Source of the DNA: a virus
Reading direction: 5' to 3' (one strand)
Virus record (IMG/VR): IMGVR_UViG_3300019458_000079
Location: 1-26,651 of that record
Length of the DNA: 26,651 bases
Of the stretch, positions 1-25,127 are shown one piece after another. The position numbers and the translations under genes were made by a program. The notes under the pieces were generated by a model that saw only the letters and a program-made list of their open reading frames with translations, was not told the origin of the DNA and made no database searches. Positions within the stretch are counted from its first letter, which is position 1; the number at the start of each line of letters is the position of its first letter.

Positions 1-708
1 ATGGCGTATTCGAATGATGAAAATATGGAGAGGTTTATGCCCGATATTCTGGACCACGGCGTGCCGGCAGTGATAGACGGGGGCGCCGCGACGACACTCG
101 CTGCTTCCGCATCGGCGGGGGCGACTTCGATCACGCTTGCCGATGCGTCGGGGCTTCAGCCGGGGGACTTCCTCAAGCTCGACAGCAGGAGCAACGTCGA
201 GGTAGTGGAAGCAGCCTCGATAAACGTGAACACGGTTACGCTCGATTCCGATACCCCCGTGAGGAAGAACCATAGGGGCGGAGTCAAGGTCGTGCAGGCG
301 GACTCGCCGGGGTTCGGAACGGATCACGACGAGGCCAAGGACGATATAGACAAGATAATAGAGGTGAAGTGGTTCAGGCCGAGGGTGCGGGAGAGGTACG
401 AAAGGGACATCGAGTTTCTTAGCGGGAACCTCGACTTCGACCCTTCGCTCATGCTGAACGCCCAGGCTCAGCTCAGGAAGGCCTCTGTTTACAGGGTGCT
501 CGCCAATTACGCGTGCCCGAAACTGTCCAAGTCGACCAGGAACGCGGACGCATGGGAGAAACGCGCGGAGGAGTACGGGAAAAAGTTCGACGAGGAGATG
601 GAGAGGGTGCTCGCCACGGGGATCGACTACGACTGGGATGCAAGCGGCGAGGTGGATGACGACGAAAACCGGATCCCGGCTACTACGTTCTTCGTAGGGA
701 GGGCGTGA
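1..708 (+). CDS. Probable head-tail connector with a beta-rich insert module
   Basis: The 235-residue protein opens with ATG at the first base of the window, so an upstream start cannot be excluded. Residues about 29-98 form a beta-rich module (TTLAASASAGATSITLADAS, then GDFLKL, then TVTLD) that also occurs twice in the tail tube protein of this window. The C-terminal half is helical and charged (AQLRKASVYRVLANYACPKL, then DAWEKRAEEYGKKFDEEMER), as expected for gp6-type connector subunits that form the ring below the portal. The next two genes look like tail completion and tail terminator proteins, which is the usual order after a connector. The connector call is inferred from position and general character; no catalytic motif is expected. 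Its stop overlaps the next start (GTGA). Confidence 0.55.
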   Translation: MAYSNDENMERFMPDILDHGVPAVIDGGAATTLAASASAGATSITLADASGLQPGDFLKLDSRSNVEVVEAASINVNTVTLDSDTPVRKNHRGGVKVVQADSPGFGTDHDEAKDDIDKIIEVKWFRPRVRERYERDIEFLSGNLDFDPSLMLNAQAQLRKASVYRVLANYACPKLSKSTRNADAWEKRAEEYGKKFDEEMERVLATGIDYDWDASGEVDDDENRIPATTFFVGRA

Positions 709-1157
709 CGGCGTTGATAACTATCGATTCGAAGGGGCTGGCGGCATTACTGAAGGACCTGGGGGAGAGGATCGAAAAGGGATTCGATTCGAAAAAGGCA
801 GTGGCGGAGTCGGCGCGGCTCGTAGCATCCCTAATAAAGCGGAGGACGAGAGCGGGACTCGATGCGGACCTGAGACCGTTCACCCCGTACAAACGCGGAA
901 AGAAAGGCGGGAGAGTGGACCTCGATGCGAGCGGGGAATTGCGGGACGCGATAGAGGTAAGGGTCGTGAGCGATACCCTGGCAGTGGTCGGCATATTCGA
1001 CCCGGTGCAGCAGAGGAAGGCGATAGTGCATCAGCTGGGCTTGGGCAGGATGCCCGTGCGGAGGTTCTTCGGCGTGAGCAGGTCGGACGTCGATACGCTG
1101 TCAGCCATAGAGAGGATTTTCGTGAAGGAGCTGAATAAGGCCGCAGGGAAGGTGTGA
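705..1157 (+). CDS. Phage virion morphogenesis / tail completion protein (Mu gpG / HK97 gp10-like)
   Basis: The 150-residue protein starts with GTG at 705, which overlaps the upstream stop; a GGGAGG ribosome site lies just before it. The pattern fits the Phage_tail_S / gp10-like tail completion group: an N-terminal helix (GLAALLKDLGERIEKG), a basic stretch (LIKRRTRAGLDADLRPFTPY) in which arguments are hydroxylated rings and basics typical of this family, a DASGELRDAI segment, a conserved histidine in VHQLG, and a C-terminal MPVRRFFGVS motif equal to the family's 'MPARPFLG' signature. Such proteins act at the head-tail joining interface or cap the tail during assembly. It lies between the connector and terminator genes with 4-nt overlaps, so it is translationally coupled to them. 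Confidence 0.72.
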   Translation: MTALITIDSKGLAALLKDLGERIEKGFDSKKAVAESARLVASLIKRRTRAGLDADLRPFTPYKRGKKGGRVDLDASGELRDAIEVRVVSDTLAVVGIFDPVQQRKAIVHQLGLGRMPVRRFFGVSRSDVDTLSAIERIFVKELNKAAGKV

Positions 1158-1630
1158 TGGTAACGAATATAAGAGAGGAAATAGACAAGGCGCTTGCAGA
1201 TAGTCTCATGCTCTCGAGCGTGATACAGCTCGTTACGAGGGAATTCGTCGGGGTCGATCTTGAAACGGGCGCGATCGAAGGGATAAGTTATCTTGAGATG
1301 CCGGCGGTAGTCGTGAATACGGGGAACGAGGCCGGGTTCACGGAGATACCGGGCGGAAAGACCAGGGTGCATTACAGCCCGGAGGTAGTGGGATACGTGT
1401 ACGACGAGGACGAGTATTTCAAGGAGCTCAACAAGCTCGTCGCCGAAACGAAGAAGATGCTCTTCGCCGACAGGAGGGTGATGTCGGGAGGGGAGTGCAT
1501 CGGTGTCATAAACGGCATTACGCAGCTGACCACGGACAGGGGGAGGCTGGCGCCCTACGGGGCGTTCTCCATGACGCTCGATATTTTATACGATTACATG
1601 ACAGTGACGGGAGGGGAACTAATCATATGA
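1157..1630 (+). CDS. Probable tail terminator protein
   Basis: The protein has 157 residues. ATG at 1157 is preferred over GTG at 1154 because the GGAAGG ribosome site (about 1147-1152) is too close to the GTG; the ATG overlaps the preceding TGA by one base. The sequence is an alpha/beta mix with an N-terminal helix (IREEIDKALADSLMLSSVIQ) and later strands, consistent with the small terminator (lambda gpU / DUF3168-like) proteins that cap the growing tail tube. I see no diagnostic motif. The call rests mainly on size, fold character and position after the tail completion gene. In most siphoviruses the tube gene follows at once; here a 6-kb island intervenes. Confidence 0.5.
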   Translation: MVTNIREEIDKALADSLMLSSVIQLVTREFVGVDLETGAIEGISYLEMPAVVVNTGNEAGFTEIPGGKTRVHYSPEVVGYVYDEDEYFKELNKLVAETKKMLFADRRVMSGGECIGVINGITQLTTDRGRLAPYGAFSMTLDILYDYMTVTGGELII

Positions 1631-2037
1631 AAAACATATTCATTTTATGGGCGTTGTTTGTTTTATCGTTAGCCGGAGCCGCGAGGGCGGATTCGGACAG
1701 GATACTTATGGAGCAGAGTACGGCGGCTCTGGGTTCCGACGAAACCTATACGAGCGATACGTTTCTGACGGAGACTTTCAGGTATCTTGCGGTTACGGTA
1801 GTGTCCGACGAGCCGAGCGCCGCAGGCGGCGTGAAGATCGAGCAGTCGTGCGACAACGACTGTGATACGGCGGTGAGTCCGGAGTTCCAGTACGTCTCCG
1901 GGTGGTCGTACACAGCGGGTTCGGCGGATAACCAGTACGTTGCCGAGCTAAACTGCAAGTGCGCGAGAGTCAGATACGTGAACGGCTCTAACGCTCAGGG
2001 GAGTTTTCACATAACTTCTTACCTTAAGCTCGACTGA
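1627..2037 (+). CDS. Small exported virion-type beta-sandwich protein with signal peptide
   Basis: The 136-residue protein starts at ATG 1627, which overlaps the previous stop (ATGA); the same frame is open further upstream but only as a shadow of the terminator gene. It begins with a clear Sec signal peptide (MKNIFILWALFVLSLAGAARA, cleavage after ARA about residue 21, given here in two parts: basic MKN, hydrophobic core, AxA). The mature part (LGSDETYTSDTF, then ARVRYVNGSNAQGSFHI) matches a beta-sandwich pattern common in minor tail and fibre proteins. Four cysteines (CDNDC and CKC) could form disulfides, which fits export. A signal peptide on a tail-module protein is unusual. Function is unknown; surface binding is an inference. 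Confidence 0.6.
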   Translation: MKNIFILWALFVLSLAGAARADSDRILMEQSTAALGSDETYTSDTFLTETFRYLAVTVVSDEPSAAGGVKIEQSCDNDCDTAVSPEFQYVSGWSYTAGSADNQYVAELNCKCARVRYVNGSNAQGSFHITSYLKLD

Positions 2038-2079
2038 TGCCGGTTTTAACGGCGCTTACAAAGAATCCGGAGGGGACAG

Positions 2080-3522
2080 ATGAGATTTGCACTTATATTG
2101 GCGGCACTCCTGTGCGCGCCTGGAATCATTGCGTACGCTGAAATACAGCAGGACGTGGTGGAGAGGGACACGATCGGCGGGACCGGCGGAGGCGGCGGGG
2201 ATCTTTCATCGACGGATATCGACACGTTTTCCGAGCTGGATGCTATAGTTGCGGACGAGGGCCTGGTTAACCTGAACGACACCCAGACCCTTCTGAATAA
2301 GGTAATAGATGGGAATAGCAATACTGTTAAAATACTCCGCCATGCGACCGACTGTACAACTTACACGGGTGCGGTGGACGGGCAGTATTGTTGGGAGCAG
2401 GATACGGACACGCTCTACGTCTGCGAGACTGAGGACGTGTGCGATACGGCTGGGGAATGGGACGCGATAGCAAGCGGAGGGGGCGCTGTTGATTCCGTAT
2501 TTGGAAGGACGGGGACAGTAACAGCCGCGACTTCCGATTATGATGCGAACCAGATAAACAACACTCCTGCAGGAACTTTAGAGGCAACGGATGTGCAGGC
2601 GGCGATTAACGAACTCGACGCGGATAAATTAAGCACCTCAGTGGCAAGCTCGACTTACTTTCCCATCGCCGGAGGATTATTCTCGGGGGATGTAACTTTG
2701 CATCCGCAGAGCCTGACAATAGACGATTCAGGCGACGGGAACCCTGCAACAAACACAGATACTACTATCACGGGAAATGACCTGTACGTTACCTGTTCCG
2801 ACGCGGACGGATGTAATCTGACTCTCTCTGAAGGCGACCCGATTCACAATAGGGAAGTCAGGGTATGGAACATAAGCGCGAATGCGCTCACTCTCGTACA
2901 TTCCAATGGAGTAGCCGAGATGTGCGGGGGAGCTAGTATTGTACTCGCTCAAAAAGAGAGTGCTAATTTTCAATATGTAACCGATGAATGGAATCAGCTT
3001 TGTACTCAAACCTCATGGGCGGATTTATACGGCGTACCTGCGTTTAGAAAGACGCTTATTCAGCTAAGGCCACAGGCGAACGAGCCTCCAGCTTCTGCAT
3101 TCGCAACAATGAATACCCGCAATTCTCACCCTGCGCTCAGGTTCAATGGCAATGTCTGTGCGATATGGTCATTCGTTATGCCGAACACTTACGGCGGGAA
3201 TGGAGTTACTGCCGAGTTATGGGTTGTGTCCACGGAAACTACCAATGATACGGACTGGGACAGTTCATGGGAAAGGTTAGAGACTACTCAAGATATTGAT
3301 GCAGATTCGTTCGCAACGGCGGTTAGCTCGGACAATAACAACAACAATGCGACTTCGGGTATTCCAACTAAGGTAAGCATCGCGTTCACGAATGGCGCAC
3401 AGATGGATAGTTGTGCATCGGGCGAACTGTGCAGATTCAGGGTGTGTAGGGACGATACGGGGGATACTGGCGGGGCTGACACGATAGATTATCTCGGCGG
3501 TGCTTTGAAGGAGACACCATAA
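2080..3522 (+). CDS. Tail-fibre-like protein with signal peptide
   Basis: The 480-residue protein has a strong ribosome site (GGAGGGG, 2069-2075). An N-terminal signal peptide (MRFALILAALLCAPGIIAYA) is followed by a Gly-rich linker (GGTGGGGG) near residue 35. Residues about 140-185 hold the phage fibre motif VDSVFGRTGTVTAATSDYDA followed by VQAAINELDADKLS, which is widespread in tail-fibre shafts. The C-terminal 280 residues are Ser/Thr/Asn-rich and beta-like, with several paired cysteines, and resemble a receptor-binding or head domain of no family I can name. Together with its neighbour it suggests exported fibre-like proteins. The promoter is not visible; it probably belongs to the late operon. 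Confidence 0.62.
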   Translation: MRFALILAALLCAPGIIAYAEIQQDVVERDTIGGTGGGGGDLSSTDIDTFSELDAIVADEGLVNLNDTQTLLNKVIDGNSNTVKILRHATDCTTYTGAVDGQYCWEQDTDTLYVCETEDVCDTAGEWDAIASGGGAVDSVFGRTGTVTAATSDYDANQINNTPAGTLEATDVQAAINELDADKLSTSVASSTYFPIAGGLFSGDVTLHPQSLTIDDSGDGNPATNTDTTITGNDLYVTCSDADGCNLTLSEGDPIHNREVRVWNISANALTLVHSNGVAEMCGGASIVLAQKESANFQYVTDEWNQLCTQTSWADLYGVPAFRKTLIQLRPQANEPPASAFATMNTRNSHPALRFNGNVCAIWSFVMPNTYGGNGVTAELWVVSTETTNDTDWDSSWERLETTQDIDADSFATAVSSDNNNNNATSGIPTKVSIAFTNGAQMDSCASGELCRFRVCRDDTGDTGGADTIDYLGGALKETP

Positions 3523-3536
3523 CGATTAGGAACGCA

Positions 3537-4142
3537 ATGAATATAGATGGAGTGGATTATAGAGGTATGGTTTTTCTGCATCCAATGAAAACTGCCGGTA
3601 CTTCAGTTGGGGTATTCCTTCGTAAATTTATACAACAACGGCATGGAGAGGTTGAAATTGTACACATGCGTCGTCACCAAGTCCCGAAGGAATTTATGTG
3701 GAAAATGGGCTACGACGATAATTGGTTTGATGATATGTATTGTCTCATATTCGTCAGAAATCCATATGAAAGATTAGTTAGTTTTTATCATCATATGAGA
3801 CAAATAGGCGGACATGCCGAAGGTCTTTGCAAGGAAAAGACTTTTCATGAATTTATTTTACATAAAGACTTAAAATATATAGTCACTCCGATGAGTGCTT
3901 ATTCTTACTACAATAAAAATATCACCAACTATGTTGTTAGATATGAAAAATTAGACGACTGTGTGTGCGAATTAATAGAATTATTAGATTTAGGCGAGTA
4001 CGCCAATGAAGTGTGGAATAACTCCGAAAGACTTATGGCTACCGATCATTTGCCTTATGAAGCATATTATACGCCCGAAACTAAAGCTATAGCTTTTAAC
4101 ACGTTTAAAGAAGATTTTATCACATACGGATACGAGGCATAA
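3537..4142 (+). CDS. PAPS-dependent sulfotransferase (Sulfotransfer_2-like)
   Basis: The 201-residue protein resembles cytosolic-type sulfotransferase domains that move sulfate from PAPS to a hydroxyl or amino group of a glycan or small molecule. The 5'-phosphosulfate loop is HPMKTAGTS (residues 15-23). The 3'-phosphate motif is FVRNPYERLVSFY (72-84) with R74 and S82 in the expected places. YEKLD (136-140) and a C-terminal DFITYGYE complete the family pattern. There is no signal peptide, so it should act in the cytoplasm. The gene is visibly richer in A/T at third positions than the phage backbone, as is the lectin gene that follows 3 nt later, which points to joint acquisition. AGGA at 3528-3531 is the ribosome site. 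The substrate is unknown; a host surface glycan or a virion glycan are both possible. Confidence 0.82.
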   Translation: MNIDGVDYRGMVFLHPMKTAGTSVGVFLRKFIQQRHGEVEIVHMRRHQVPKEFMWKMGYDDNWFDDMYCLIFVRNPYERLVSFYHHMRQIGGHAEGLCKEKTFHEFILHKDLKYIVTPMSAYSYYNKNITNYVVRYEKLDDCVCELIELLDLGEYANEVWNNSERLMATDHLPYEAYYTPETKAIAFNTFKEDFITYGYEA

Positions 4143-4145
4143 ATA

Positions 4146-4808
4146 ATGGCTTGGAATTTTGATGGCGGCGATGCTGCTTGGTTGGAAAATGTGGGTGCTG
4201 TGACTCTTCCTGATGGTGATTGGGCTATGGGGGGTCTCATAAAATTTTCAACAAGGGTAGGCACTCTTAGAAGATATATTATAAAAGGTGGAAGTGGTTA
4301 TACTTCATCTTTCTTTGTACGCATAGGAGATGATGGTGGACCTGATGCAGACGATGTAAATATAGCTTTTCTTGATGATGATGGCACGGTTATAAATGCT
4401 TCTTCTACGGGCAACCCATTCGCATCCAATACTTCCTGGACACATTTACTTCTTCAACGCTCAGGAACTACTATAACTGTTTATGTGAATGGTTCATCTG
4501 TTGCAAGTGTTAGTAATGCTAGTTTCGATGCTTTAGCTCCTAATGATTGGATACAATTTGGGAATGAACAATATTTCTCAAATGGGTTTCGCGGCGATTT
4601 AGCGGAATGGGCCAAGTGGGACAGGACTTTATCCAGCGCAGAAATAGCTGGTCTTGTTCAAGGGTACGCTCCTTCATGCTATCCGAATTCTTTGATGTGG
4701 TACGTACCCATGATACGTGATTATAACGAGATTAGAAATGGAATAGAAGTTGATAATGATGGCTCCACAGTGACGGAACATCCTCGAATGATTTACTGTG
4801 GTGACTAA
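4146..4808 (+). CDS. LamG / concanavalin-A-like lectin domain protein
   Basis: The 220-residue protein has residues about 1-170 matching the LamG-like jelly-roll fold: an N-terminal FDGGD strand, the central SWTHLLLQRSGTTITVYVNG segment, then FRGDLAEWAKWDRTLSSAEI, the usual closing strand and helix of this fold. The last 50 residues (PNSLMWYVPMIRD and onward) are an extension with a C-terminal cysteine. There is no signal peptide, unlike four other proteins of the island. Such domains bind carbohydrate and are common in phage tail and fibre proteins. The gene is AT-rich like the sulfotransferase just upstream and overlaps the next start by one base (TAATG), so it is co-transcribed and coupled. 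Confidence 0.75.
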   Translation: MAWNFDGGDAAWLENVGAVTLPDGDWAMGGLIKFSTRVGTLRRYIIKGGSGYTSSFFVRIGDDGGPDADDVNIAFLDDDGTVINASSTGNPFASNTSWTHLLLQRSGTTITVYVNGSSVASVSNASFDALAPNDWIQFGNEQYFSNGFRGDLAEWAKWDRTLSSAEIAGLVQGYAPSCYPNSLMWYVPMIRDYNEIRNGIEVDNDGSTVTEHPRMIYCGD

Positions 4809-6235
4809 TGCTGATTCTTTCGAGATTATCGATTATTATTATTTGCCTGATTATTTTCGGGTTTGCTCTTTTACAATCGATCGAGACGTACGGTGAGCCG
4901 ACTCTATGCACTTTTTGCTGTGAACCGGGGTGTCATGGGGCCAGGGTTTTGGGTTACACACCCCCGACGCCGACTCCCGAACCGACGCCTACTCCCACGC
5001 CTTCACCATCCCCGGAAGCGTTCGCAACGGTAGAGATTGCCTGTACTACTTATAACCTGCCGCCCCGAAGCTCAGCGGATGCAGGGGATTTCGAGGACGC
5101 TGATGTTATAAGGGATTCGTGCAAACTTGTATTAGATTGGTATTATCCGTTGATTGCACAATCATGGTGTCCTTACATCATGGACGGATCGCTGACGGAG
5201 TATTGCGGCCCTTACGACAATTACGGTTTCATGTATTCGACGAGGGACGGGACATTAGGCGGGTATCTGTATGATGACGGCGGGGCGTTTCAGCCCTGCT
5301 CGAACGAGACTGATGTTTGCGGATATATGTTGAAAGACAATGACGCGCTTATTCCCGTTGCTCACGGATTCGGTTTTGACCATGAAAAATTAACAGACAG
5401 GGGCAATCCTGATTTTAATAACTTCTTTATGGATTACTTTGAAGATATGCCCGATACTCCCGCGAGCTTGGCAGCTTACGAAGGTACGAACGTAGACAAA
5501 GACTGGAACCTGAGATTCCTCGACAACTTTCATTCATGGATACTCGAAGCGGGGGGCTGGAGCGATACGCCGATGAATCCGAGAACGAACGCGGATTACA
5601 CTCGGTCTCAAATGGATGCGGATGTATTGGATGCAGCGGAGATACTAAGAGCAAGGGCAGATTTAGTTAACGTCTTTCTCTTTGCAAATATATGGAGTGA
5701 TGTAGAATCAGAATATTTCGACAGGCCGATTTACGCATTGCTTATGGACGAGATTGACTTCGCGCTCTTTGAAGAATGGGCTTACGACTGGCAAGGCCCG
5801 GCAGAGTCCGAAACAATCTGGCTCCGCAGGGTAAATGCCGCTCAGGATATGATAAAGAACCGCAGGGCGGTCCCTATAGTAGACGGCGAGTTTGGGGCTA
5901 GTTATTGGTACTCACTCGCAAGCCTTTTGTTGGTCAAGGAAAACGGTAAGGGCATGATTTGGTTTTGGTACGGTTCATCAAGCTTTCCCTCAAGTGGTGA
6001 TTTGACGAAGATGCTCTCACTCGATTGCGGACAGCCCTCGGGCGTCGATTATCAACTTGTGAGCAGCTCGTATTACCGGAAGGATTGGGATAATTGTATT
6101 ATTCTGGTGAATCCGAAAACAGGCTCGACGGGTTCTATCTCACTCGGCGGGAATTATACGAACCTCGAGACAGGGGCAACGGTTTCAAGTATAACTCTTT
6201 CGGCCAAGACGGGAGCAATTTTGGTAGCACAATGA
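4808..6235 (+). CDS. Secreted glycosidase-like TIM-barrel protein (copy 1)
   Basis: The 475-residue protein starts one base inside the previous stop. A hydrophobic signal sequence (residues 1-29) is followed by a Cys-rich stretch (CTFCCEPGC, 34-42) and a TPTPEPTPTPTPSPSP linker (54-69). The rest looks like a glycoside-hydrolase-type barrel of the GHL15 kind, a tentative assignment. Acidic residues shared with the downstream paralog are D209 (FFMDYF), D317 and E322 (IDFALFE) and E361 (DGEFG). The C-terminal 45 residues (ILVNPKTGS, then LGGNYTNLETG) form a small beta domain typical of such hydrolases. The product is probably exported, perhaps acting on host surface polysaccharide. It could also be a non-catalytic binder. 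The downstream gene overlaps by 4 nt. Confidence 0.6.
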   Translation: MLILSRLSIIIICLIIFGFALLQSIETYGEPTLCTFCCEPGCHGARVLGYTPPTPTPEPTPTPTPSPSPEAFATVEIACTTYNLPPRSSADAGDFEDADVIRDSCKLVLDWYYPLIAQSWCPYIMDGSLTEYCGPYDNYGFMYSTRDGTLGGYLYDDGGAFQPCSNETDVCGYMLKDNDALIPVAHGFGFDHEKLTDRGNPDFNNFFMDYFEDMPDTPASLAAYEGTNVDKDWNLRFLDNFHSWILEAGGWSDTPMNPRTNADYTRSQMDADVLDAAEILRARADLVNVFLFANIWSDVESEYFDRPIYALLMDEIDFALFEEWAYDWQGPAESETIWLRRVNAAQDMIKNRRAVPIVDGEFGASYWYSLASLLLVKENGKGMIWFWYGSSSFPSSGDLTKMLSLDCGQPSGVDYQLVSSSYYRKDWDNCIILVNPKTGSTGSISLGGNYTNLETGATVSSITLSAKTGAILVAQ

Positions 6236-7668
6236 AAAACAGGAACTTTCAGATTACGGTACATGGCTTATGTATGACGGTACTGTTCGTCATGATCCTG
6301 ATGGCGGAGAACTGTCCGAATACCCACGCTGCGACGATTAATCTGAAATGCGGCCAGAAAGTCAGGGATAACAAGAGCGGGAATTACTTTCAGGCCCCGG
6401 CCTGCCCGAAACCCTGCCTGGCCCGGAAAACTTCTGTTGTAGGTCTTGCACCCACTCCGACGCCTATACTCTTGCCTGCCCCTATTCCGGCTCCCGTATC
6501 AGCCCCTGTCCCAAGCCCATCTCCTGCACCTGCTTCGGGGAACACAATAGACTTTGCCTGCACGACTTACTGGAATTACGGGCACAGGGATAGTGCCGGT
6601 ACCGCTGTGATGTCTAAGGTGAACAAGCTTAGAAGTTATTGCGATATGGTGCTTACCTGGTGGGAGTCTACTCCTTCACAAACATGGTGTCCATATATTC
6701 GGCACAATTCAGCGGTCAAATTTTGCGGCCCTTACGACAATTGGGGATATATGAGGACTGATAAGGAGTTGTATAAAAAGCATGGCGTAAAGTGGCAGTT
6801 AAAAACAGATTCCGGCTCGCCTACTTTAAATCAATACATTCCGCTTGAAGGCGCGCTTGATTGGGGTAATCCGGCGTTCGTACATTTCTTCATAGACTAC
6901 TTCAACCAGCCCCCGGCAGGTATTAGCGAGTGGACGGGGACATTCCGGGAACGCTCATGGAACCTGCGAGAGCTGGATAATTTCGTGATACGCACGATCA
7001 ATAACTATGCGTGGAACAACACGCCTGTAAACCCTCGAACCGGTAAGGCTATGACGAACGCGGAACGGGAAGCCGACGTGCTGAGGGCTATGCAGACGAT
7101 GAGGGCGGCTGCCGACGCTCAGGGCTTGAAGTACTTTGCCAACGTGTTCAGCGATCTCAGCACCGATTATTTCTCCCGGCCTGTTTATTCGCAGCTTATG
7201 AATCTCGTCGATTATGCCTTCTTCGAGGTCATGGTAGCGGATATGCAGCACAATAACGTTACGGAATCCGTGTGGCTTACCAGGGTGAAGATCGCGCAGG
7301 CGATAGCGAAGAATAATCGGGCGATCCCCGTTATCACGACCGAGTACGGGGACTTCTGGTATAACGTCGCAACGATGCTGCTCGCGTGCGAGCCGGGGAA
7401 GTGTATGACGTTTCAGCAGCCGATAATGACCGACTCGCAGATCGAGAAGCTTTCGACTCTCGATTTAGGTGCCCCGGTCAGTGATTTCGCCAAAGCGGGC
7501 TGCTATATACGCTCGTGGACCAAAGGCCTCATCGCCGTAAACCCGATGGATTCGGGGAGCTGCCACGTGGCGCTCTCCGGAAGCTACAGGGACCTCGAGA
7601 CCGGAAAGACGGTGAGTGGTACGATTCAGATAAACAACAAGGGCGGGAAGGTGTTGGTGGAGGAGTAG
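6232..7668 (+). CDS. Secreted glycosidase-like TIM-barrel protein (copy 2)
   Basis: The 478-residue paralog of the preceding gene starts at ATG 6232 inside an ATGA overlap; the frame is open earlier but only in shadow of copy 1. Residues 1-34 are a signal sequence with hydrophobic core LCMTVLFVMILMA. A Pro/Ala linker (73-101) precedes the barrel. Shared blocks include WCPYI, CGPYDN, DWGNPAF/RGNPDF, FFIDYF (D222), WNLRELDNF, VDYAFFE (D327, E332), TEYGDFW (E371) and AVNP. The two copies are clearly homologous but well diverged, so the duplication is not recent. Both keep the same candidate acidic residues, which argues for retained activity in both. It ends the accessory island. Confidence 0.6.
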   Translation: MKNRNFQITVHGLCMTVLFVMILMAENCPNTHAATINLKCGQKVRDNKSGNYFQAPACPKPCLARKTSVVGLAPTPTPILLPAPIPAPVSAPVPSPSPAPASGNTIDFACTTYWNYGHRDSAGTAVMSKVNKLRSYCDMVLTWWESTPSQTWCPYIRHNSAVKFCGPYDNWGYMRTDKELYKKHGVKWQLKTDSGSPTLNQYIPLEGALDWGNPAFVHFFIDYFNQPPAGISEWTGTFRERSWNLRELDNFVIRTINNYAWNNTPVNPRTGKAMTNAEREADVLRAMQTMRAAADAQGLKYFANVFSDLSTDYFSRPVYSQLMNLVDYAFFEVMVADMQHNNVTESVWLTRVKIAQAIAKNNRAIPVITTEYGDFWYNVATMLLACEPGKCMTFQQPIMTDSQIEKLSTLDLGAPVSDFAKAGCYIRSWTKGLIAVNPMDSGSCHVALSGSYRDLETGKTVSGTIQINNKGGKVLVEE

Positions 7669-8018
7669 GTAATCCGCCTGATATCAGGAATTGGAGTATA
7701 AGGGTCGCGGCTGGAGGCCGCTCCTACGGACACGATGCAAGATGCATGATACAGGATGCAGGATGCGGGATTAGAGGACTGGATTCCCGATTCTTTCCGG
7801 CTTGTGTTGCTACGTCGCCGGGATAAATAGCCATATTTGCAATCAGCGGAGGGCGACCGGTTCATGCGCTTGCTCAGAACCGTTTTCGGGAATGACAAAT
7901 AGAAGATGAGATCCTGAAACTAGTTCAGGATGACTGAAATAGAAAGGAAGAAAAATAACGCCCGGGGCGGTGAGAGCCGTTCCGGGTTTTTTTATATAAA
8001 AACGGAGGTGTAATAATT
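7669..8018. repeat. Intergenic REP-like repeat cluster upstream of tail tube
   Basis: This 350-nt stretch carries no convincing gene. It holds a palindromic element with stem core GCGGCTGGAGGCCGC at 7705-7729 (second copy at 24935-24959), a run of degenerate GATGCA repeats (about 7734-7769), a copy of a longer dispersed element (7839-7897, also at 24819-24880), and a hairpin ATCCTGAA/TTCAGGAT at 7911-7931 (also at 12461-12482, with a stem-compensated variant at 24899-24919). Elements of this sort are typical of bacterial chromosomes, not of free phages. Confidence 0.7.
7961..7994 (+). terminator. Strong intrinsic terminator before tail tube gene
   Basis: A 10-bp stem, CCCGGGGCGG against CCGTTCCGGG with two G-T pairs, encloses a short TGAGAG loop and is followed at once by a run of seven T. 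It lies 25 nt before the tail tube start, so it either ends transcription of the accessory island or attenuates read-through into the tube gene. No separate promoter is visible between it and the start codon. Confidence 0.85.
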
Positions 8019-9497
8019 ATGGCACAGGCTTCAGGCTCAAGTGCAGAGATTTGGTATAAGATTGAACAGGCGAACGGCGTGACGCCGTCCGTGGACTCGG
8101 GCGCGTCTACAACGCTCGCGTCTGCTGTAAATCCGGGTGCGGCTTCTATCGTGGTCGCGTCGGATTCTGGTATCGCCGCGGGTGATATACTTCGCGTCGG
8201 GAACAGCCAGAACATGGAGTTCGTGAAGGTGGATGCGGGTTACGTGTCGGGGACAACAGTCACACTCGATACGAACACGAAGATCAACTACAGGCACGAG
8301 TCGGGCGAGGACGTGAAGGAAACGGACCCGACCCAGAACTGGTTCAAGCTCGGGAACGTGAGGTCGTTCACGCCGTCGGGCGGAAGGGAGCTCCAGAGGT
8401 CGCAGGCTTTATCGGGCTCTCGCGTGCTCTCCAACTTCCGCGAAGGAAACTACGACGCGGGCGCCGACATGACGGTCGAGCTCGACATCGAGACCGCCGG
8501 GCTCTTTTATCTCCACGCGCTCAATAACGACTATTACAGCGCGGGAGCGACGCAGCCTTCTTCGCCCGTGAGCACTACTCTCGCGAACGCGGCCGACAAG
8601 GGGGATACGCAGATAGAGGTCGCGAGCGCGACTAATATGGACACCGGCGTGTTCCTGCTGATAGGGACCGGCACGGGGGCCGAGATCGTGAAGGTGGGTA
8701 CGTACACGAGCGGCACTACGATAGACCTCGATCCGGACGCGCACCCGTTCGGTTTAAGGAAGTCTCACGCGAACGGCGTAGCGGTGGTCGAGAAGATAAA
8801 ACCCTTCACGCATACGATCTACAGGGGATCGACCATACCCGAGGGGATAAGCATACTTCTCAGGTTTACGGACATCGAGTCGCTCATGCTCATCAGGGGG
8901 AACAAGATATCCAACCTGACGCTGAGCGTCGATCCGAGCGACCTGCCGCAGCTCAATATGAACGTCGTCGGGAAGGCGTTTCAGATACTGTCCGAGAATA
9001 TTTTCGGGACGCCGACCGCGATATCCAACACTCCATACGTGCACTGGGAAGCGGACGTGCAGGTGGACGGCTCTCCCTTGACATCGAACCAGCTCGAGAA
9101 CCTGAGTCTCGTTATCGAGAACACGATACAGGGGAATTTCGTCGTGGGGTCGCCGATAAAGGGCGCGATCACGCCGGGGGAAGGGTCGGTGAGCGGATCG
9201 TTCACGTATCAGTTCGGGAGCCAGCAGTTCTCGGAGAAGACGATCGCCGGGACGGAGACGCAGCTCGATTTCATCTGGACATACATCGGCGACGATAACC
9301 ACCAGGTGACGCTCAGCGTGCCGAAGGCGAAATTCGAGGGGAGTCCGCATCCGGGAGTGGGATCGAAGGACCCGATCACCGATGAGAAGAGTTTTCTCGG
9401 GAGACTGGATACCGGCTCTTCGCCTGAGACGGATATTACGGTGACGGTGAAGAACACTCAGCCGACGGTTGAGTTTATGGTTGAGGCGAGCGCCTAA
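8019..9497 (+). CDS. Major tail tube protein with two inserted beta modules
   Basis: The 492-residue protein has a strong ribosome site (GGAGGTG, 8004-8010). N-terminal residues, the segment NWFKLGNVRSFTPSGGRELQ (about 107-126) and the long beta-rich remainder resemble siphophage tail tube subunits that polymerise around the tape measure. Two modules of about 70 residues (from about 29 and about 183: STTLASAVNPGAASIVVAS and STTLANAADKGDTQIEVAS) are homologous to each other and to the module in the connector at the start of the window. They are likely surface-exposed decorations, which explains the large size compared with a plain tube protein. The high GC and AGG-rich codons match the backbone. 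Confidence 0.72.
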   Translation: MAQASGSSAEIWYKIEQANGVTPSVDSGASTTLASAVNPGAASIVVASDSGIAAGDILRVGNSQNMEFVKVDAGYVSGTTVTLDTNTKINYRHESGEDVKETDPTQNWFKLGNVRSFTPSGGRELQRSQALSGSRVLSNFREGNYDAGADMTVELDIETAGLFYLHALNNDYYSAGATQPSSPVSTTLANAADKGDTQIEVASATNMDTGVFLLIGTGTGAEIVKVGTYTSGTTIDLDPDAHPFGLRKSHANGVAVVEKIKPFTHTIYRGSTIPEGISILLRFTDIESLMLIRGNKISNLTLSVDPSDLPQLNMNVVGKAFQILSENIFGTPTAISNTPYVHWEADVQVDGSPLTSNQLENLSLVIENTIQGNFVVGSPIKGAITPGEGSVSGSFTYQFGSQQFSEKTIAGTETQLDFIWTYIGDDNHQVTLSVPKAKFEGSPHPGVGSKDPITDEKSFLGRLDTGSSPETDITVTVKNTQPTVEFMVEASA

Positions 9498-9522: not shown

Positions 9523-9636
9523 ATGGGGTGTTACTTCATAGTTATCTGGATTATCACACCCCAACTATTCCTCCTGATGTTTGCGGGAGAGATTGCCGAG
9601 CCCCTTTTCACGTTTAGAAAGACAAAGAGAAAGTAG
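9523..9636 (+). CDS. Possible 37-residue single-TM peptide
   Basis: ATG 9523 follows AGGGA (9511-9515) at good spacing and opens 37 codons: hydrophobic residues 4-21 (YFIVIWIITPQLFLLMFA), then a short acidic piece and a basic tail (RKTKRK). It lies between the tail tube and the chaperone genes. The basic tail lies where similarity to the downstream dispersed repeat begins, so that end may be repeat-derived. A small membrane peptide, perhaps holin-like or exclusion-like, is possible; a chance ORF is also possible. Confidence 0.3.
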   Translation: MGCYFIVIWIITPQLFLLMFAGEIAEPLFTFRKTKRK

Positions 9637-9651
9637 AAGTAAAAGTATTTT

Positions 9652-9808
9652 CTTCTTTTCCTTGATGAAAAGAAGCAAAAATCATCCGACAGCACAGAAT
9701 CTTGGCTAAAATATCTTATTACGGCTAAAATCTATCAATTCCGCCCCAGCCCTGATAGATTTTTACGCCTAATAAGATATTTCTTAACGCCGATTCTGTG
9801 AATGTCGG
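9652..9808. repeat. Structured dispersed repeat, copy 1
   Basis: A perfect hairpin (CTTCTTTTC, loop CTTGAT, GAAAAGAAG; 9652-9675) is followed by nested perfect stems: CACAGAATC/GATTCTGTG (9693-9701 with 9792-9800), a 13-bp stem (9709-9721 with 9770-9782) and AAAATCTATCA/TGATAGATTTT (9727-9737 with 9753-9763). A closing pair CCGACA/TGTCGG (9686-9691 with 9803-9808) bounds the fold. A second copy at 24602-24755 keeps the folds but changes the stem sequences. It could be a structured RNA or a hairpin-type mobile element. Confidence 0.75.
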
Positions 9809-9981
9809 GGAAAGGAAAAAGCGAGATTCCCGATAGAGGATTTCGGGAATGACAGAGAAATTAAGGTACATACCCATCTAGATCCTGGATCGGGGTCCGG
9901 GACAGGCTTTCCCCCTTAATATGGGGAAGGAAATAATTTAGGGAGGGAAGATTGTAAAAAGGAAATGTAAAAGGAGATTAT

Positions 9982-11639: not shown

Positions 11640-12047
11640 TCAGGTGAATTCTTTGTAGAGGATGATGGCGACGAGGATGGATGTGAGGGCCAGGAGCACG
11701 TCGCGCAGAGTGAAGCCCCAGAACGTGCGGGCGGGGTCGGTGAGGTCGAGCGGGACCGGAAGGTGGTTCTCTCCGATGATCTCGGCTGCTTTGGGGGTAT
11801 CGAGCGGGATCATGGAGTCGCGGCCGCAGCGGGGGCAGACGCAGAATTTGACTCTGAAGAGCGTAAGCGTGTAGAAGAAGGCGACGGCGAAGACGATAGT
11901 CGCGGGGAGCCAGAGCTCGTTCTCGAAGACGCCGGCGAAGGCGAGGACGAAGGCGATCATCCAGAGGGCAGACTCGGTCTTGACGCTGCCGTGGGAGGAG
12001 GCGTCCTCGTAGCCGATGTAGAGGCAGCCGATGCAGAGTTTCTTCAT
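11640..12047 (-). CDS. Small membrane protein with paired CxxC motifs (cassette A)
   Basis: The 135-residue protein starts at 12047, 17 nt from the divergent tape-measure remnant. It has CIGC (5-8), two hydrophobic segments (about 28-42 and 46-63), CPRC (71-74) followed by MIPLDTPKA, and a third hydrophobic segment (about 115-131). The same plan of CxxC, membrane helices, CxxC and PLDxPEA occurs in two further proteins of this window. The cysteine pairs probably bind zinc at the cytoplasmic face. The gene has the GC-rich composition of the backbone, unlike its two relatives. Its function is unknown. A membrane protein next to the tape measure on the opposite strand could be a superinfection-exclusion moron; this is inference from position only. 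Confidence 0.65.
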   Translation of the reverse strand: MKKLCIGCLYIGYEDASSHGSVKTESALWMIAFVLAFAGVFENELWLPATIVFAVAFFYTLTLFRVKFCVCPRCGRDSMIPLDTPKAAEIIGENHLPVPLDLTDPARTFWGFTLRDVLLALTSILVAIILYKEFT

Positions 12048-12064
12048 TCACATAAGGATAACAG

Positions 12065-12415
12065 ATGGGATTGGTGGGGTTTGATGCGAAGGGGGCGAAG
12101 GAGATAAAAGAAAGACTCGAGAAATTCTTCCAGGGCGATTTACAAGGCCGGTTCCTGTTCGCTATAAGAGACTTCTTCCAGTTCGCATTCGAGCAGTTAG
12201 GCGTGCTGCCGGATGCAGCCAGGAGGTTTCTAGACGCCAAGTTTGAGGAATTCAAGAACGCTGGATCGAGAGAGGCGAGGGCGGCTGTCGGACAAGAACT
12301 GCTCGCGGATATAAACGCATTCGTTGATGCGTTCAATATCGTCTCAGGCAATGTGAACGACGCGATTGGGCAGACGATCGAGAAAGAAGAGTGGGAGTAT
12401 AGGTTGGCGGCGTGA
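12065..12415 (+). pseudogene. Tape measure remnant, cassette A
   Basis: This 116-codon ORF corresponds only to the end of the shared tape-measure domain (from FDAKG to NDAIGQTI) and then the short tail EKEEWEYRLAA. A ribosome site (AAGGA, 12054-12058) precedes the ATG at good spacing, so a short product could still be made. Compared with copies B and C, the N-terminal part and most of the shared domain are missing, apparently by one internal deletion that joined the upstream region to FDAKG. The 5' part resembles copy D (FLFAIRDFF), the 3' part copy C (REARAAVGQELLADINAF). Confidence 0.75.
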
Positions 12416-13145: not shown

Positions 13146-13225
13146 AAATAAAATATATGTATCAAATGTAATAAATGCAAGTTGGATAGTTTTTACGTTT
13201 TGCGGCTAGTTTGCTTGGAGGAATG

Positions 13226-16123
13226 ATGGCGGATATTAACAGTCTTGCATTGAAGGTGTCACTCGATATAGAAGGCTTCAAAGAAGCTAATACTGAAGCT
13301 GGTGAATTAGCTACATCATTTTCAAAGCTAGCTGATTCATTGAACCAGTCAGGACAAAAGATAGTAAGCACCTTCAGACAGATTTCAGAACAATTAGAGA
13401 TTCTAAAAAGCGAACTTCAAGGTGCTGAGGAAAAACTGTCTTTATTCGGCATTGAGTTTGATATATCTAAGGATCCAACAGAGTCACTTAAAGCGCTGAG
13501 CGACGCGATTAAAAATTTCAAACAGTCATTAGTATCGGGAAATGAGGATGCAATAAAGTTTATTGCAAAATTAATAGATGGATTCGCTGATTTAATTAAT
13601 TGGATGAATGAAAATATTCCCGGATTAACGCAAGTAATTACTTTAATCACAGGATTGACTTTAGCCTTTCTAGCCGCTGTGCCAGTAGTTGCAGCGATTG
13701 TTGCCGGATTTACACTATTAGCGGGTCTTTTCGGAATTACAGGAACGGCTGTGGCTGGATTTGCTGGTACAGCTATATTGGCTGTTGTAGCTATAGCCGC
13801 AATCTCAGCAGCAGTAATCAGTTTGATCCAGAATTGGGGTGCCCTAGTTTTGGCAGCACAAGTGACGTGGGAGGAGAACATTGTCCCAATCTTAGAGACG
13901 GTTGCGGGTGCCATAGCAGGAGTACTGGGGGGAATTGGAGATATAGCATTAATCATATGGGAAGGGGTAAAAGAAACCACGTCAGCGGCTTGGGAATTTA
14001 TCACGGAAGTAGTATCGAACGCTGTGAGTTTACTGATAAGGATTTTCCAGGGTATCGGAGAGCAGCTATCTCAGACCTGGGAAGTAGTTAAGCAGACTGC
14101 ACTAGCCGCTTGGGAGAGCATAAAGGAGATAGTTGGAAACGCTATAGAATCAATTAAGGGCTTTTTCGGGGCGGTAGTTGAAAGACTTTTCGAAGTATGG
14201 GAATCGGCTAAAGAGACTGCATCAAATGCCTGGGAATTAATAAAGCAGACGGTATCAATCGGAGTTGAGTCGATAAAGGGGCTCTTCAGCGGAATAAGTG
14301 AAAGTCTAACCGGGGTATGGGAAGGAGCAAAAGAAAAGGCATCGGAGGCATGGGAAGGTATAAAAGGAATTGTGTCGGGAGCTGCAGAATCGATAAAGAA
14401 ATTCGGGGAGGATATCAAGAATAGTATTATAAAGGCTTTCACTGACGCGTTCGATAAGGTTAAGGAAATCTTTTCGAACCTGCTCGGTGGATTAAAAGAA
14501 AGTTGGGATAACTTTATCAATAGCCTTCCATCCTTAGATTTTTTCAAGAAAGGGGAACAGCCGACGGTTCCAGAAAATCCTCTGCCTACTCCAAGCCCGG
14601 AATCGGGCGGCGGGCCTTCGGCGTTTCTTAATCAGGACATTATAGATCTGGCCCAAGGGTATAAAAACCTAGGCGATAATATTGATTTTGCGACCGGGAA
14701 GACAAAAGACTTCAACATCGCTGTTTTGACTGAGGATGAGTTGCTCCAAGGTTCAGTTGCAAGTCTAGTATTAAATGGGGGGATGCTAAAGAATAATGGT
14801 ACAGCAGCATCTGATTTAAAAACCAAATATGAGAGAGTAAAAGTAGCAATAAATAATACTTCGGAGTCACTTGATAACGCCGGTATAAGCGCTGAAAACA
14901 CAAGTGAAAAATTCGAGCAGCTTGAGAATACTGGCGGGTTTTTTGAAGGGATAAAGCAGGGGTTCGTAGATTTTGTAGAGAATGTGGAGAGCAACAGCGA
15001 GCTTATGGCTGATTTCTTTGCAAATACGCTCTCGCAGATGAGTCAGAGTTTCAGCGATTTGTTTTTCAACGTACTCACCGGGAGATTCGACGACCTCAAG
15101 GACCTTGCGAAGCAGGCGTTCGAAGCGATACTGAGGGCTTTCCTCGACCTGGTAAGCGCGATTGCGACGAGGCAGATAGTATTGAGCATAGGCGGGTTAT
15201 TCGGAATAGGAAAAAGCGCGCAAGCTGCAGGAGGAGGGGGTAATCCGGTTGACATCGCGCAACAGGGGGCTGGTGTTGTTGGCAGCGGATTTGACTTGTT
15301 CGGCTCAGGAGGGGCATTTTCTACGCTGGGTCAGGGGTTAGGGTTGATAGCCCCGGTAAGTGGGGCGATAACTGCTGCGGAGGCTGTAGGAGCACCGGCG
15401 GGAGTGGGTTCGCTAATTGCTGCGCTCGAACCCGGAACAACCCTTGCTCCCGGATTTCTCGCCACGGCGGGGGCGGCGGTAACTATCGTCGGTGCGGTGC
15501 TTGCTGCTGCTGCACTTGCTTTCACGATAATCGCTCCACTTCTTGAGAAGACGCCAAGATTGGACATAGACTTCGATTCCGTGAAAACAGAGGCTGGGAG
15601 GAGGGCTGCGTTAGTCAGTGAGCTCTTGGACGACGACTTCCTGAAAGACGAAATAATAGATATATCGGTAAAGCGGAAGGCGGGTCTGGGGCTTGGAGGG
15701 GACGAGGGGATAAAGGACATACTCGCGGACGCCATACAGGTCGCGGTGAATAACCTGCTGGATATAATCAACAAGCTGCCGACTGACCTTGCGGACACCC
15801 TGACGGAGGAGCTCCTGAATACACCGCTCGACACGGAGACGGAGGTAGCCGGGGAGAGACTGTTCGAGTTCGATGCAAAAGGCAAGAAGATAGGCGAGAA
15901 ATTCAATCAGCTGATAAACGGGGAGATACAGGCTAAGTTCCTATTCGCGGTGGATGGGTTCCTGCAGACGATGTTCGAATCGCTGGGGGTGCTGCCGGAG
16001 GCCGCGGAGGCGTTCGTAGATGAGCAGTTCGATGCTTTCAAGAATGCAGGATCGAGAGAGGAGCGGGCGCAGATAGGGCAGACGATAGAGAATGAGGAGT
16101 GGGAGTATATGCAGGCTGCGTGA
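13226..16123 (+). CDS. Tape measure paralog B, truncated at C-terminus
   Basis: ATG 13226 is best placed behind GGAGG (13217-13221). The 965-residue protein has a unique N-terminal part of 569 residues: helices, a long hydrophobic region (about 133-240), and four exact 40-residue repeats with paired tryptophans (W245/W256, W285/W296, W325/W336, W365/W376). From G570 (GGFFEGIKQGF) it enters the domain shared with C and D: the tape-measure motif FSDLFFNVLTGRFDDLKDLA, a Gly-rich stretch, then KTPRLDIDFDSVK. It ends in ENEEWEYMQAA where copy D continues for another 500 residues. A 26-residue segment present in C and D is missing just before the end. The first 1.7 kb are AT-rich, the shared part GC-rich. 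Confidence 0.75.
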   Translation: MADINSLALKVSLDIEGFKEANTEAGELATSFSKLADSLNQSGQKIVSTFRQISEQLEILKSELQGAEEKLSLFGIEFDISKDPTESLKALSDAIKNFKQSLVSGNEDAIKFIAKLIDGFADLINWMNENIPGLTQVITLITGLTLAFLAAVPVVAAIVAGFTLLAGLFGITGTAVAGFAGTAILAVVAIAAISAAVISLIQNWGALVLAAQVTWEENIVPILETVAGAIAGVLGGIGDIALIIWEGVKETTSAAWEFITEVVSNAVSLLIRIFQGIGEQLSQTWEVVKQTALAAWESIKEIVGNAIESIKGFFGAVVERLFEVWESAKETASNAWELIKQTVSIGVESIKGLFSGISESLTGVWEGAKEKASEAWEGIKGIVSGAAESIKKFGEDIKNSIIKAFTDAFDKVKEIFSNLLGGLKESWDNFINSLPSLDFFKKGEQPTVPENPLPTPSPESGGGPSAFLNQDIIDLAQGYKNLGDNIDFATGKTKDFNIAVLTEDELLQGSVASLVLNGGMLKNNGTAASDLKTKYERVKVAINNTSESLDNAGISAENTSEKFEQLENTGGFFEGIKQGFVDFVENVESNSELMADFFANTLSQMSQSFSDLFFNVLTGRFDDLKDLAKQAFEAILRAFLDLVSAIATRQIVLSIGGLFGIGKSAQAAGGGGNPVDIAQQGAGVVGSGFDLFGSGGAFSTLGQGLGLIAPVSGAITAAEAVGAPAGVGSLIAALEPGTTLAPGFLATAGAAVTIVGAVLAAAALAFTIIAPLLEKTPRLDIDFDSVKTEAGRRAALVSELLDDDFLKDEIIDISVKRKAGLGLGGDEGIKDILADAIQVAVNNLLDIINKLPTDLADTLTEELLNTPLDTETEVAGERLFEFDAKGKKIGEKFNQLINGEIQAKFLFAVDGFLQTMFESLGVLPEAAEAFVDEQFDAFKNAGSREERAQIGQTIENEEWEYMQAA
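13955..14434 (+). repeat. Four 120-bp coding repeats in tape measure B
   Basis: Residues about 244-403 of the protein form four 40-residue repeats of the form W-E-x-x-K-E-x-x-x-x-A-W-E-x-I-K, with Trp pairs 11 residues apart. Regularly spaced aromatic residues are typical of tape measures, which are thought to contact the inner tube wall at fixed steps. Confidence 0.75.
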
Positions 16124-16762: not shown

Positions 16763-17152
16763 TTACGGCTTAGGGGTTTCTAATGAATCCGGATTTGGCT
16801 CATTCTGAGCAGTTTGGCGAGTATTTTCTCCGACTTTTAGATCGTATTTTTTGATTGTATTGATAGCCTCGGGGTCATCGAGAGGTAGCATTTCTTTATT
16901 GCCGCATTTTGGGCAGGTTTTTGTTTCTAGAAAGGATAATAAAATAGCAGTAATACCTATCGATAGGGCAATAAGTGAATATAAAAATGAAGGAAATGAA
17001 AAGTCAGAAGTCCCTGTACCATATGATTCGTGTTGTACAAAGCTAAACAAAAAACCAATTCCGAAGATCAAATTGCCATACGGAATCCATTTATCTAGGA
17101 ATCTTTTATTCGCCTTTCCTAAATAGTGGCATTTAGGGCAAAGTTTACTCAT
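16763..17152 (-). CDS. Small membrane protein with paired CxxC motifs (cassette C)
   Basis: The 129-residue protein has CPKC at 5-8, two hydrophobic segments (about 25-39 and 54-75), CPKC at 80-83, then MLPLDDPEAINTIKKYDLKV and a polar tail ending SLETPKP. The cassette D relative shares both cysteine pairs, the DNPEALNLIIKYDLKLG block and the ending SLETPK. The two cysteine pairs would form a zinc-ribbon-like knuckle joined through the membrane segments. It is AT-rich and divergent from tape measure C. Its function is unknown; the position fits an exclusion or injection-modulating role, which is inference. Confidence 0.68.
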   Translation of the reverse strand: MSKLCPKCHYLGKANKRFLDKWIPYGNLIFGIGFLFSFVQHESYGTGTSDFSFPSFLYSLIALSIGITAILLSFLETKTCPKCGNKEMLPLDDPEAINTIKKYDLKVGENTRQTAQNEPNPDSLETPKP

Positions 17153-17290: not shown

Positions 17291-17350
17291 ATGGTTAACG
17301 ATAAATTTAGATTCGTTAGCTTATCTAAATACAATGCCTATTATAGTTAA
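17291..17350 (+). CDS. 19-residue leader ORF overlapping tape measure C start
   Basis: ATG 17291 follows AAGGAG (17282-17287) and encodes MVNDKFRFVSLSKYNAYYS, stopping at 17350, inside the beginning of tape measure C (ATG 17334) in another frame. Tape measure C has no ribosome site of its own, so its translation may depend on this leader by coupling, or the start of C may have been damaged by a frameshift. Copies B and D have normal ribosome sites and no such leader. Confidence 0.4.
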   Translation: MVNDKFRFVSLSKYNAYYS

Positions 17351-20464: not shown

Positions 20465-20554
20465 ACCAAGATAATAACGTAGAAAGGAACAACAAGCTAG
20501 TATAGAAATCACCTGTTAGCGGTAAAGAAATCGGACTTATATCGAGGGGAAAAA

Positions 20555-24526: not shown

Positions 24527-25127
24527 GGGGGCTTCGGCTGGGCACTTCGTGCGCAATGACAAGGAAAAGACAAAGAAAGGTGAAAGGCTATTTTTTTTAT
24601 CCTTCTTTTCCTTGATGAAAAGAAGCAAAAATCATCCGACTGAACATAATTTGCTAAAAATCTTATGTTGAAGCTAAAATCTTTCAATTGGAAAGCTGAA
24701 AGATTTTTATACGCTTCAACACTCGATTTTCTATACGCAAATTCTGTAATGTCGGGAAGAAAAAGATAGATTTCTCGATTTGGTTTGTGTGGATTGGATA
24801 CGATGTCAATGCGAGTTATTTGCAATCAGCGAAGAGCGACCAGTTCTTGCGCCCGCTCAGAACTGTTGGTCGAAATGACATTCAAAGATAAAGATGAGAT
24901 TCTGAGTCAAGCTCAGAATGACGGAAATTGGATATCGCGGCTGGAAGCCGCTCCTACGAGAATTTACTAAAGAGAAAGGCAAAATCCCCCTTAATTTGAT
25001 CTTAATAGCAGAGTCACTTCAACTAAGTGGCTGATTTGTTATCAACCAACTCCGACCAATTCCTCCGATGTGTCGGAATTGTTCCCCTTTACGTAAGGAG
25101 GGAAATTGAAAAGATCACGGATGAGAT
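24527..25127. repeat. Intergenic repeat region after tape measure
   Basis: This 600-nt stretch has no gene. It holds a CTTCGTGCGCAATGACA-type element, the second structured repeat (24602-24755), the GATAGATTTCTCG repeat (24765-24840), the GCAATCAGCG repeat (24819-24880), a hairpin ATTCTGAG/CTCAGAAT (24899-24919), the GCGGCTGGAAGCCGC palindrome (24935-24959), and a TCCCCC...CCTCCGATGTGTCGGA repeat (about 24985-25105) that recurs at 10995-11125. Confidence 0.7.
24602..24755. repeat. Structured dispersed repeat, copy 2
   Basis: It has the same leading hairpin as copy 1 (24602-24625, identical) and the same ATCATCCGAC element. The nested stems are kept with altered bases: AATTTGC/GCAAATT (24648-24654 with 24737-24743), TGTTGAAGC/GCTTCAACA (24666-24674 with 24713-24721) and AAAATCTTTCA/TGAAAGATTTT (24676-24686 with 24697-24707). 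CCGAC/GTCGG (24636-24640 with 24751-24755) closes it. Confidence 0.75.

Follow-up and report, generated by a model that had tools for sequence, protein, structure and literature searches.

Genes at the locus

The window, by which we mean the whole stretch of DNA that was analysed, is a 26.7-kb fragment from an IMG/VR virus record. It contains a tail module in which a slot, limited by the tail terminator gene on the left and by the tail tube gene on the right, holds the gene of a PAPS-dependent sulfotransferase and, next to it, the gene of a protein with the LamG (concanavalin A-like lectin) fold. The features of this region are the following; signal peptides were called by a crude rule of our own, other than SignalP.

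705..1157, plus strand: neck or tail-completion protein of the backbone (phrog_26 3e-11, Pfam Phage_tail_S 3e-5)
1154..1630, plus strand: tail terminator, left border of the slot (PF23818 5e-7, phrog_3907 1e-7)
1627..2037, plus strand: small conserved protein with a predicted Sec signal peptide (orthologues in the related contigs L003, L004, L009, L017 and L002)
2080..3522, plus strand: fibre-like protein with a predicted Sec signal peptide (own signal rule; homology of 3033–3490 to L004)
3528..3531, plus strand: AGGA, likely ribosome-binding site of the sulfotransferase gene (sequence)
3537..4142, plus strand: PAPS-dependent sulfotransferase, Sulfotransfer_2 (PF03567 1.3e-7, phrog_3347 9e-10, AlphaFold model)
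3579..3605, plus strand: 5'-phosphosulfate-binding loop HPMKTAGTS, residues 15–23, with K18 and S23 (sequence, alignment)
3675..3677, plus strand: His47, candidate catalytic base, near-invariant (a histidine in all 56 viral relatives that align there)
3756..3782, plus strand: 3'-phosphate-binding motif RNPYERLVS, residues 74–82, with R74 and S82 (invariance in relatives)
4134..4137, plus strand: GAGG, likely ribosome-binding site of the LamG gene, within the 3' end of the sulfotransferase gene (sequence)
4146..4808, plus strand: LamG / concanavalin A-like lectin-fold protein, 220 aa (PF13385 1.1e-13)
4808..6235, plus strand: protein with a predicted signal peptide and a Pro/Thr-rich linker (37% identical to its paralogue at 6232–7668)
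6232..7668, plus strand: second paralogue, with predicted signal peptide and linker (homology, own signal rule)
8019..9497, plus strand: tail tube protein, right border of the slot (PF18906 1.5e-21, phrog_290 2e-32)

A search with the tail tube protein retrieved three related viral contigs, L002, L003 and L004, in which it is 94, 86 and 86% identical, respectively, and a capsid search retrieved six viral contigs. The tail terminator shows a dN/dS of about 0.05–0.16 between relatives. Between these same borders the content of the slot varies, and the six clusters that can be compared all differ from each other:

Window: sulfotransferase, LamG protein and two paralogous linker proteins
L002: two LamG proteins and one linker protein
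L003: a lectin-like protein and a beta-helix protein
L004: a LamG protein and a beta-helix protein (beta-helix by eye)
L017: one enzyme-like protein
L033 (reverse strand): beta-rich proteins and a beta-helix protein (by eye)

The sulfotransferase is present in one of the six, the window itself. None was found in the related virus records, an absence that rests on reading of their open reading frames, since the family search matched no control genome either. Orthologues of the small protein at 1627–2037 occupy this position in L003, L004, L009, L017 and L002, the start of the L002 copy being unclear, and the fibre-like protein ends in a domain that is common to slot proteins of relatives. The product of 4808–6235 is 45% identical to the same-slot protein of L002, and a search for wider relatives of the two linker proteins returned the L002 contig alone. 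Neither has a Pfam or NCBIfam family match, apart from one spurious Pfam hit at 0.045, and their PHROG matches are none better than E 0.016. A previous sequence-only reading of this DNA considered these downstream genes as glycosidase-like, which we could not confirm: Pfam, PHROGs and NCBIfam gave no hydrolase family, and the structure model of the 4808–7668 proteins, built from three sequences, is of low confidence (pLDDT 41).

By our crude rule, Sec signal peptides are carried by 21 of the 28 slot proteins and by none of the 18 backbone proteins. Such proteins with a predicted export signal, some of them with Pro/Thr-rich linkers, are found at window 1627–3522 and 4808–7668 and in the slots of L002, L003, L004, L009, L017 and L033, and exported proteins are unusual for a tail module.

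The sulfotransferase and its relatives

The frame at 3537–4142 is open and encodes 201 aa, of which residues 10–199 are covered by PF03567 with 32.4 bits, for a gathering score of 22. Its coordinates and reading frame, the two PAPS motifs and the gap of 3 nt to the next gene are all as the sequence-only reading had described them. The PAPS-binding residues, whose loss in homologues would have spoken against that reading, are kept: R74, N75, P76 and S82 in 59 of 59 aligned viral relatives, and K18 as K or R in 55 of 55. An AlphaFold2 model built from the alignment of 59 relatives reached a pLDDT of 86.3 and a pTM of 0.85. Its top match among solved folds is a heparan sulfate 2-O-sulfotransferase, with Z 12.7 over 178 residues; taken together, the heparan sulfate 2-O- and 6-O-sulfotransferases score Z 11.7–12.7 (11.8 for the 6-O enzyme), and cytosolic SULTs rank close behind with Z 10.4–11.7, within 1–2 Z units. 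Foldseek alone gave a weak match (E 5e-3). Judging from motifs and model, it is beyond reasonable doubt that the product is a motif-complete sulfotransferase, and it likely acts on sugars. The enzyme has in common with the heparan sulfate sulfotransferases the fold over about 180 residues, the PAPS loop, the 3'-phosphate motif and the conserved histidine; however, those are animal Golgi enzymes, whereas this one has 201 aa and no signal peptide by our crude rule.

A single-sequence scan of viral contigs found no close relatives of the sulfotransferase, and tblastn against 50,697 phage records gave nothing at 1e-5, so that relatives were reached only by family-level alignment. At that level, at least 182 places in IMG/VR encode relatives, of which 80 with about 20–34% identity were kept. 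Within the alignment the closest ones are at most 31% identical to the window enzyme, and its function is therefore read at family level only. Phage sulfotransferases are already common, and by sequence the gene is a divergent addition to a known family, a large and little-tested group of enzymes with which phages may add sulfate to the surface sugars of bacteria, in this case from an uncultured host class. A literature search for phage and sulfotransferase together returned incidental mentions only, in titles and abstracts.

The neighbours of the viral relatives are informative about the family: 14 of 114 genes encode additional sulfotransferases, and there are also methyltransferases, glycosyltransferases, enzymes of nucleotide-sugar metabolism and a kinase resembling APS kinase. 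Such company suggests a role of the family in the modification of glycans. A plasmid search gave three weak matches, in Rhodobacterales, and glycosyltransferase and exopolysaccharide genes adjoin the nearest plasmid relatives. Unlike many viral relatives, the window gene has no visible neighbour of the glycosyltransferase, nucleotide-sugar or APS-kinase kind. The phage Sulfotransfer_2 proteins of phrog_3347 ("Galactose-3-O-sulfotransferase"), whose members include those of Stenotrophomonas phage DLP6 and Phage CBW1004C-Prop1, share with the window enzyme the family, the PAPS motifs and a similar size, and in Phage CBW1004C-Prop1 the gene likewise lies within structural genes. Phage genes of this family are often found near glycan-modifying genes or in replication regions, whereas that of the window stands alone in a tail-module slot.

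In the tree, the window enzyme groups with the viral sequences of L066, L067, L097 and L119 (99/89), a grouping that is unsure because the window branch is long (2.51). Conserved chromosomal sulfotransferases of Dadabacteria (for example, that at C1:78503 of genome G006) share family and host class with it, but they are 25–30% identical over the C-terminal two thirds and stand elsewhere in the tree, and a direct host-chromosomal source was rejected for this reason.

The LamG protein and its link to the sulfotransferase

The LamG gene matches PF13385 (LamG_3) with 52 bits, against a cut-off of 27.6. It begins 3 nt after the sulfotransferase gene (stop codon at 4140–4142, ATG at 4146), and its likely ribosome-binding site lies inside that gene, hence the two are probably translated together. 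The protein is 34–38% identical to the same-slot LamG proteins of L002 and L004. These homologues carry a signal peptide, whereas none was called by our crude rule in the window protein, and its N-terminus, Met-Ala, corresponds to the apparent mature start of the signal-bearing homologues. PF13385 proteins from phage structural modules (L131, L133, L134 and L135) share the domain and are signal-less like the window protein; some of them start with MA-x-x-F, and they are positioned between or near structural genes. We predict that the LamG protein most likely belongs to this module as a particle or surface component that binds glycans.

The sequence-only reading proposed that sulfotransferase and lectin came in as one pair. 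This finds no support in the relatives, where LamG or beta-rich genes fill the slot without a sulfotransferase; with LamG genes in the slots of L002 and L004, the lectin is to be seen as a resident of the slot, and its neighbourhood with the enzyme is no proof of a joint import.

In L135, an unrelated phage contig, the product of 4852–5337 resembles the C-terminal domain of the fibre-like slot protein and is encoded near a signal-less LamG protein (5734–6498, by eye); the pair directly precedes likely scaffold and capsid genes (by eye). This arrangement suggests that the fibre-like domain and LamG began as particle proteins.

Base composition

Both genes had been reported to differ in composition from those on either side, and this holds. 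GC3 is 0.322 for the sulfotransferase and 0.285 for LamG, whereas the two genes that adjoin them have 0.528 (Fisher p 1e-7 and 5e-11, respectively) and the backbone genes 0.778 (p about 1e-37 and 1e-46). A composition like that of the backbone, which would have counted against the sequence-only reading, is therefore not what is seen. A similar contrast occurs elsewhere, as 56 of the 508 segments of the same size in the contig are AT-richer, mostly around three tape-measure genes. Same-slot genes in the related clusters are also low in GC3, with values of 0.28–0.42 (0.42 for the L002 LamG gene and 0.28–0.40 for the L033 genes). AT-rich genes are thus nothing exceptional at this place between terminator and tail tube.

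The carrier cluster in Dadabacteria chromosomes

Capsid relatives with about 90–97% identity are found in MAGs of Candidatus Dadabacteria and in Thermodesulfobacteriota DHS20C13 (G006). The G006 cluster is intact and lies at C1:239881–272409 of a 326-kb contig; it includes small and large terminase, portal, capsid, tail, tape measure, fibre-like protein and endolysin genes, and the virus contigs are collinear with it. One chromosomal locus is concerned in four Dadabacteria genomes, with the intact cluster in G006 and partial or remnant copies in G044, G039 and G037. The host genes that flank the partial copy of G044 (C15:662–679 kb) match those around the G006 cluster, and the remnants of G039 (C34) and G037 (C2) are bracketed by the same flanking markers. 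In the G039 remnant, a neck fragment is 83% identical and the tape measure is fused to a later gene. The GC content of the cluster is close to that of its flanks, being 0.423 versus 0.410/0.425 in G006 and 0.467 versus 0.472/0.457 in G044. Core genes show dN/dS of 0.02–0.2 (NG86, where synonymous divergence is measurable, many G006 pairs being saturated). Between G006 and G044 the core tail proteins are 82% identical and the flanking genes 36–65%, and this higher conservation of the core leaves room for exchange between hosts.

The cluster also contains intergenic repeats, two of which are the following:

9617..9820, no strand: intergenic repeat recurring in related contigs (74–79% matches in L002, L008, L009 and L010)
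24561..24782, no strand: dispersed chromosomal repeat of Dadabacteria, 222 bp, intergenic (matches in host genomes)

The second one matches G004 in 32 places (up to 91%, over long stretches), G005 in 17, G044 in 32, G006 in 5 and G037 in 2. More intergenic repeats lie inside the cluster at window 7891–7956 and 24927–24982.

With the PF00589 profile, no tyrosine integrase was found in the window and the related virus records (G000–G003) or on the 326-kb contig C1 of G006, and in G044 the nearest one is 350 kb away. The linkage between integrase and structural genes that is expected of a temperate prophage is thus absent from this search, the window itself being a fragment. The fixed locus, the lack of a tyrosine integrase, a GC content like that of the flanks, the host repeats and purifying selection, taken together, favour an old resident, phage-derived structural cluster of Candidatus Dadabacteria as the carrier, rather than a freely moving phage. 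The window itself is apparently resident as well, judging from its relatives and from the common repeat. The tail module of the sequence-only reading stands, with neck, terminator and tail tube genes around the slot, while its phage is better read as a resident cluster. In the same way, its motif-complete sulfotransferase and lectin neighbour are retained, but not the imported unit or the receptor change after lysogeny.

Such a cluster is possibly, as far as genes can tell, a gene-transfer-agent (GTA)-like element or an ancient cryptic prophage that is decaying in several lineages. One trait of GTAs is found in it, namely purifying selection on structural genes (dN/dS 0.02–0.2), which active phages would show too. 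A GTA is also expected to be inherited at a fixed locus as a head–tail cluster free of mobility genes; here one locus is concerned in four genomes, with three partial or remnant copies, and an ancient cryptic prophage would look alike. A small terminase without DNA-binding domain has been described for GTAs (PMC11841831); that of the cluster matches phrog_6299, four homologues examined have no Pfam match at all, and by eye there is still a helix-turn-helix-like stretch. In our opinion, the resident cluster of Dadabacteria, with its variable slot and no tyrosine integrase found, is more interesting than the enzyme. Neither this cluster nor its rapidly changing cargo slot, which swaps glycan-binding and exported proteins, seems to have been described, and the resemblance of IMG/VR "virus" contigs to a resident, selected structural cluster of Dadabacteria chromosomes may matter more than the sulfotransferase.

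Possible role of the sulfotransferase

From the observed motifs, fold, slot, host group and host-class PAPS genes, we infer the activity, the substrate and an effect on binding. The reading that we prefer, and to which we give an even chance, is that of a working cytosolic PAPS-dependent sulfotransferase, probably of carbohydrate type, which is accessory cargo in the slot of the resident Dadabacteria cluster and alters the recognition of surface glycans. Where the cluster is expressed, the enzyme would take PAPS made by the host APS kinase and would sulfate the precursor of a surface or extracellular polysaccharide while this is linked to a lipid or to a nucleotide; the sulfated glycan would then reach the surface, and its binding by particles or by competing phages would change. 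As the enzyme has no signal peptide, it would act in the cytosol, where polysaccharide precursors form. The APS-kinase cut-off is exceeded in 41 of 57 host-class genomes, including all those with the cluster or its remnants, so that the host can likely supply PAPS. Our best guess, which would also be the most economical account, is that the enzyme sulfates a polysaccharide at the surface or outside the cell.

Having been seen once among six clusters, the sulfotransferase could be a transient cargo. The gene might even be a neutral passenger, an AT-rich gene recently caught in the slot of a cryptic, decaying prophage and without any selected role. AT-rich genes do come and go in the slot, and decay of the cluster is visible in G037, G039 and G044. 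However, no catalytic or cofactor motif is damaged, and the open frame stands in a closely packed series of genes, preceded by a ribosome-binding site of its own; in addition, purifying selection on the core genes is strong (dN/dS 0.02–0.2). For these reasons we consider a passenger unlikely.

A more ambitious possibility, quite unlikely at present, would be a GTA-like element of Dadabacteria in which the hypervariable slot supplies exported and particle-borne glycan-binding proteins together with, in this lineage, a sulfotransferase that rewrites the surface polysaccharide of the recipient or of the producer. In Rhodobacter capsulatus, a capsular polysaccharide is a GTA receptor, and its genes adjoin and are co-regulated with those of the head spikes (PMC10218006). 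The R. capsulatus GTA is a resident, selected head–tail cluster like that of Dadabacteria, which is known from its genes alone; the likeness is one of description rather than of sequence-level comparison. For our preferred mechanism, the capsule-receptor case is an analogy and not evidence. The papers searched gave no GTA of Dadabacteria, with one incidental hit. If the cluster does make particles, GTA-like elements would extend to another bacterial class, and particle adhesion and receptor modification would be linked in one operon. Were the GTA-like reading true, one operon of a domesticated phage would encode both the receptor chemistry and the particle adhesins, and the two would change in step.

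The sulfate could also be destined for the particle itself, if the enzyme modified glycans or residues on LamG, fibre and other slot proteins during assembly in the cytoplasm and so changed adhesion. The likely ribosome-binding site of LamG inside the sulfotransferase gene is consistent with this, as are the signal-less LamG proteins in structural modules of other phages; moreover, the window LamG, lacking a signal, would meet a cytosolic enzyme, unlike its signal-bearing homologues. We nevertheless regard it as decidedly improbable: the recognisable neighbours of viral sulfotransferases are mostly carbohydrate-modifying and not structural, the fold leans to polysaccharide sulfotransferases, and no protein-glycosylation gene was seen in the window.

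Phages are known to alter surface glycans after lysogeny, and the enzyme family and tail module are real, yet lysogenic conversion, by which an active temperate phage would sulfate LPS or capsule and so block superinfection after integration, and to which the receptor change of the sequence-only reading corresponds, is very unlikely and has lost its premise with the resident cluster: no tyrosine integrase was found in the window, the related records or the 326-kb contig, with the nearest 350 kb off in G044; one conserved host locus is involved in four Dadabacteria genomes, partial or remnant in three and with host dispersed repeats inside; and a place among structural genes is not typical of lysogeny-expressed genes.

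Tape-measure genes

A row of tape-measure-like genes is found in the window (12065–12415, 13211–16123, 17334–19745 and 20555–24526) and again in L004 (14853–15269, 16020–18413 and 19447–21470). These genes have their middle and late part in common (about 68–88% at the DNA level), and their AT-rich first halves differ. All but the last stop soon after a common "...GQTI", with a similar short tail (EEWEYRLAA). The row has the look of several alternative tape-measure cassettes in an array, one of them full-length, and recombination within the common part could swap the first halves; in G006 and G044 there is just one copy, which is full. Small proteins are encoded on the minus strand between the cassettes (window 11640–12047, 16763–17152 and 20093–20512; G006 C1:257502–259994). 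They have a CxxC-type start (e.g., "KLCTQCxYIG", membrane-like) and recur in the clusters of several Dadabacteria carriers.
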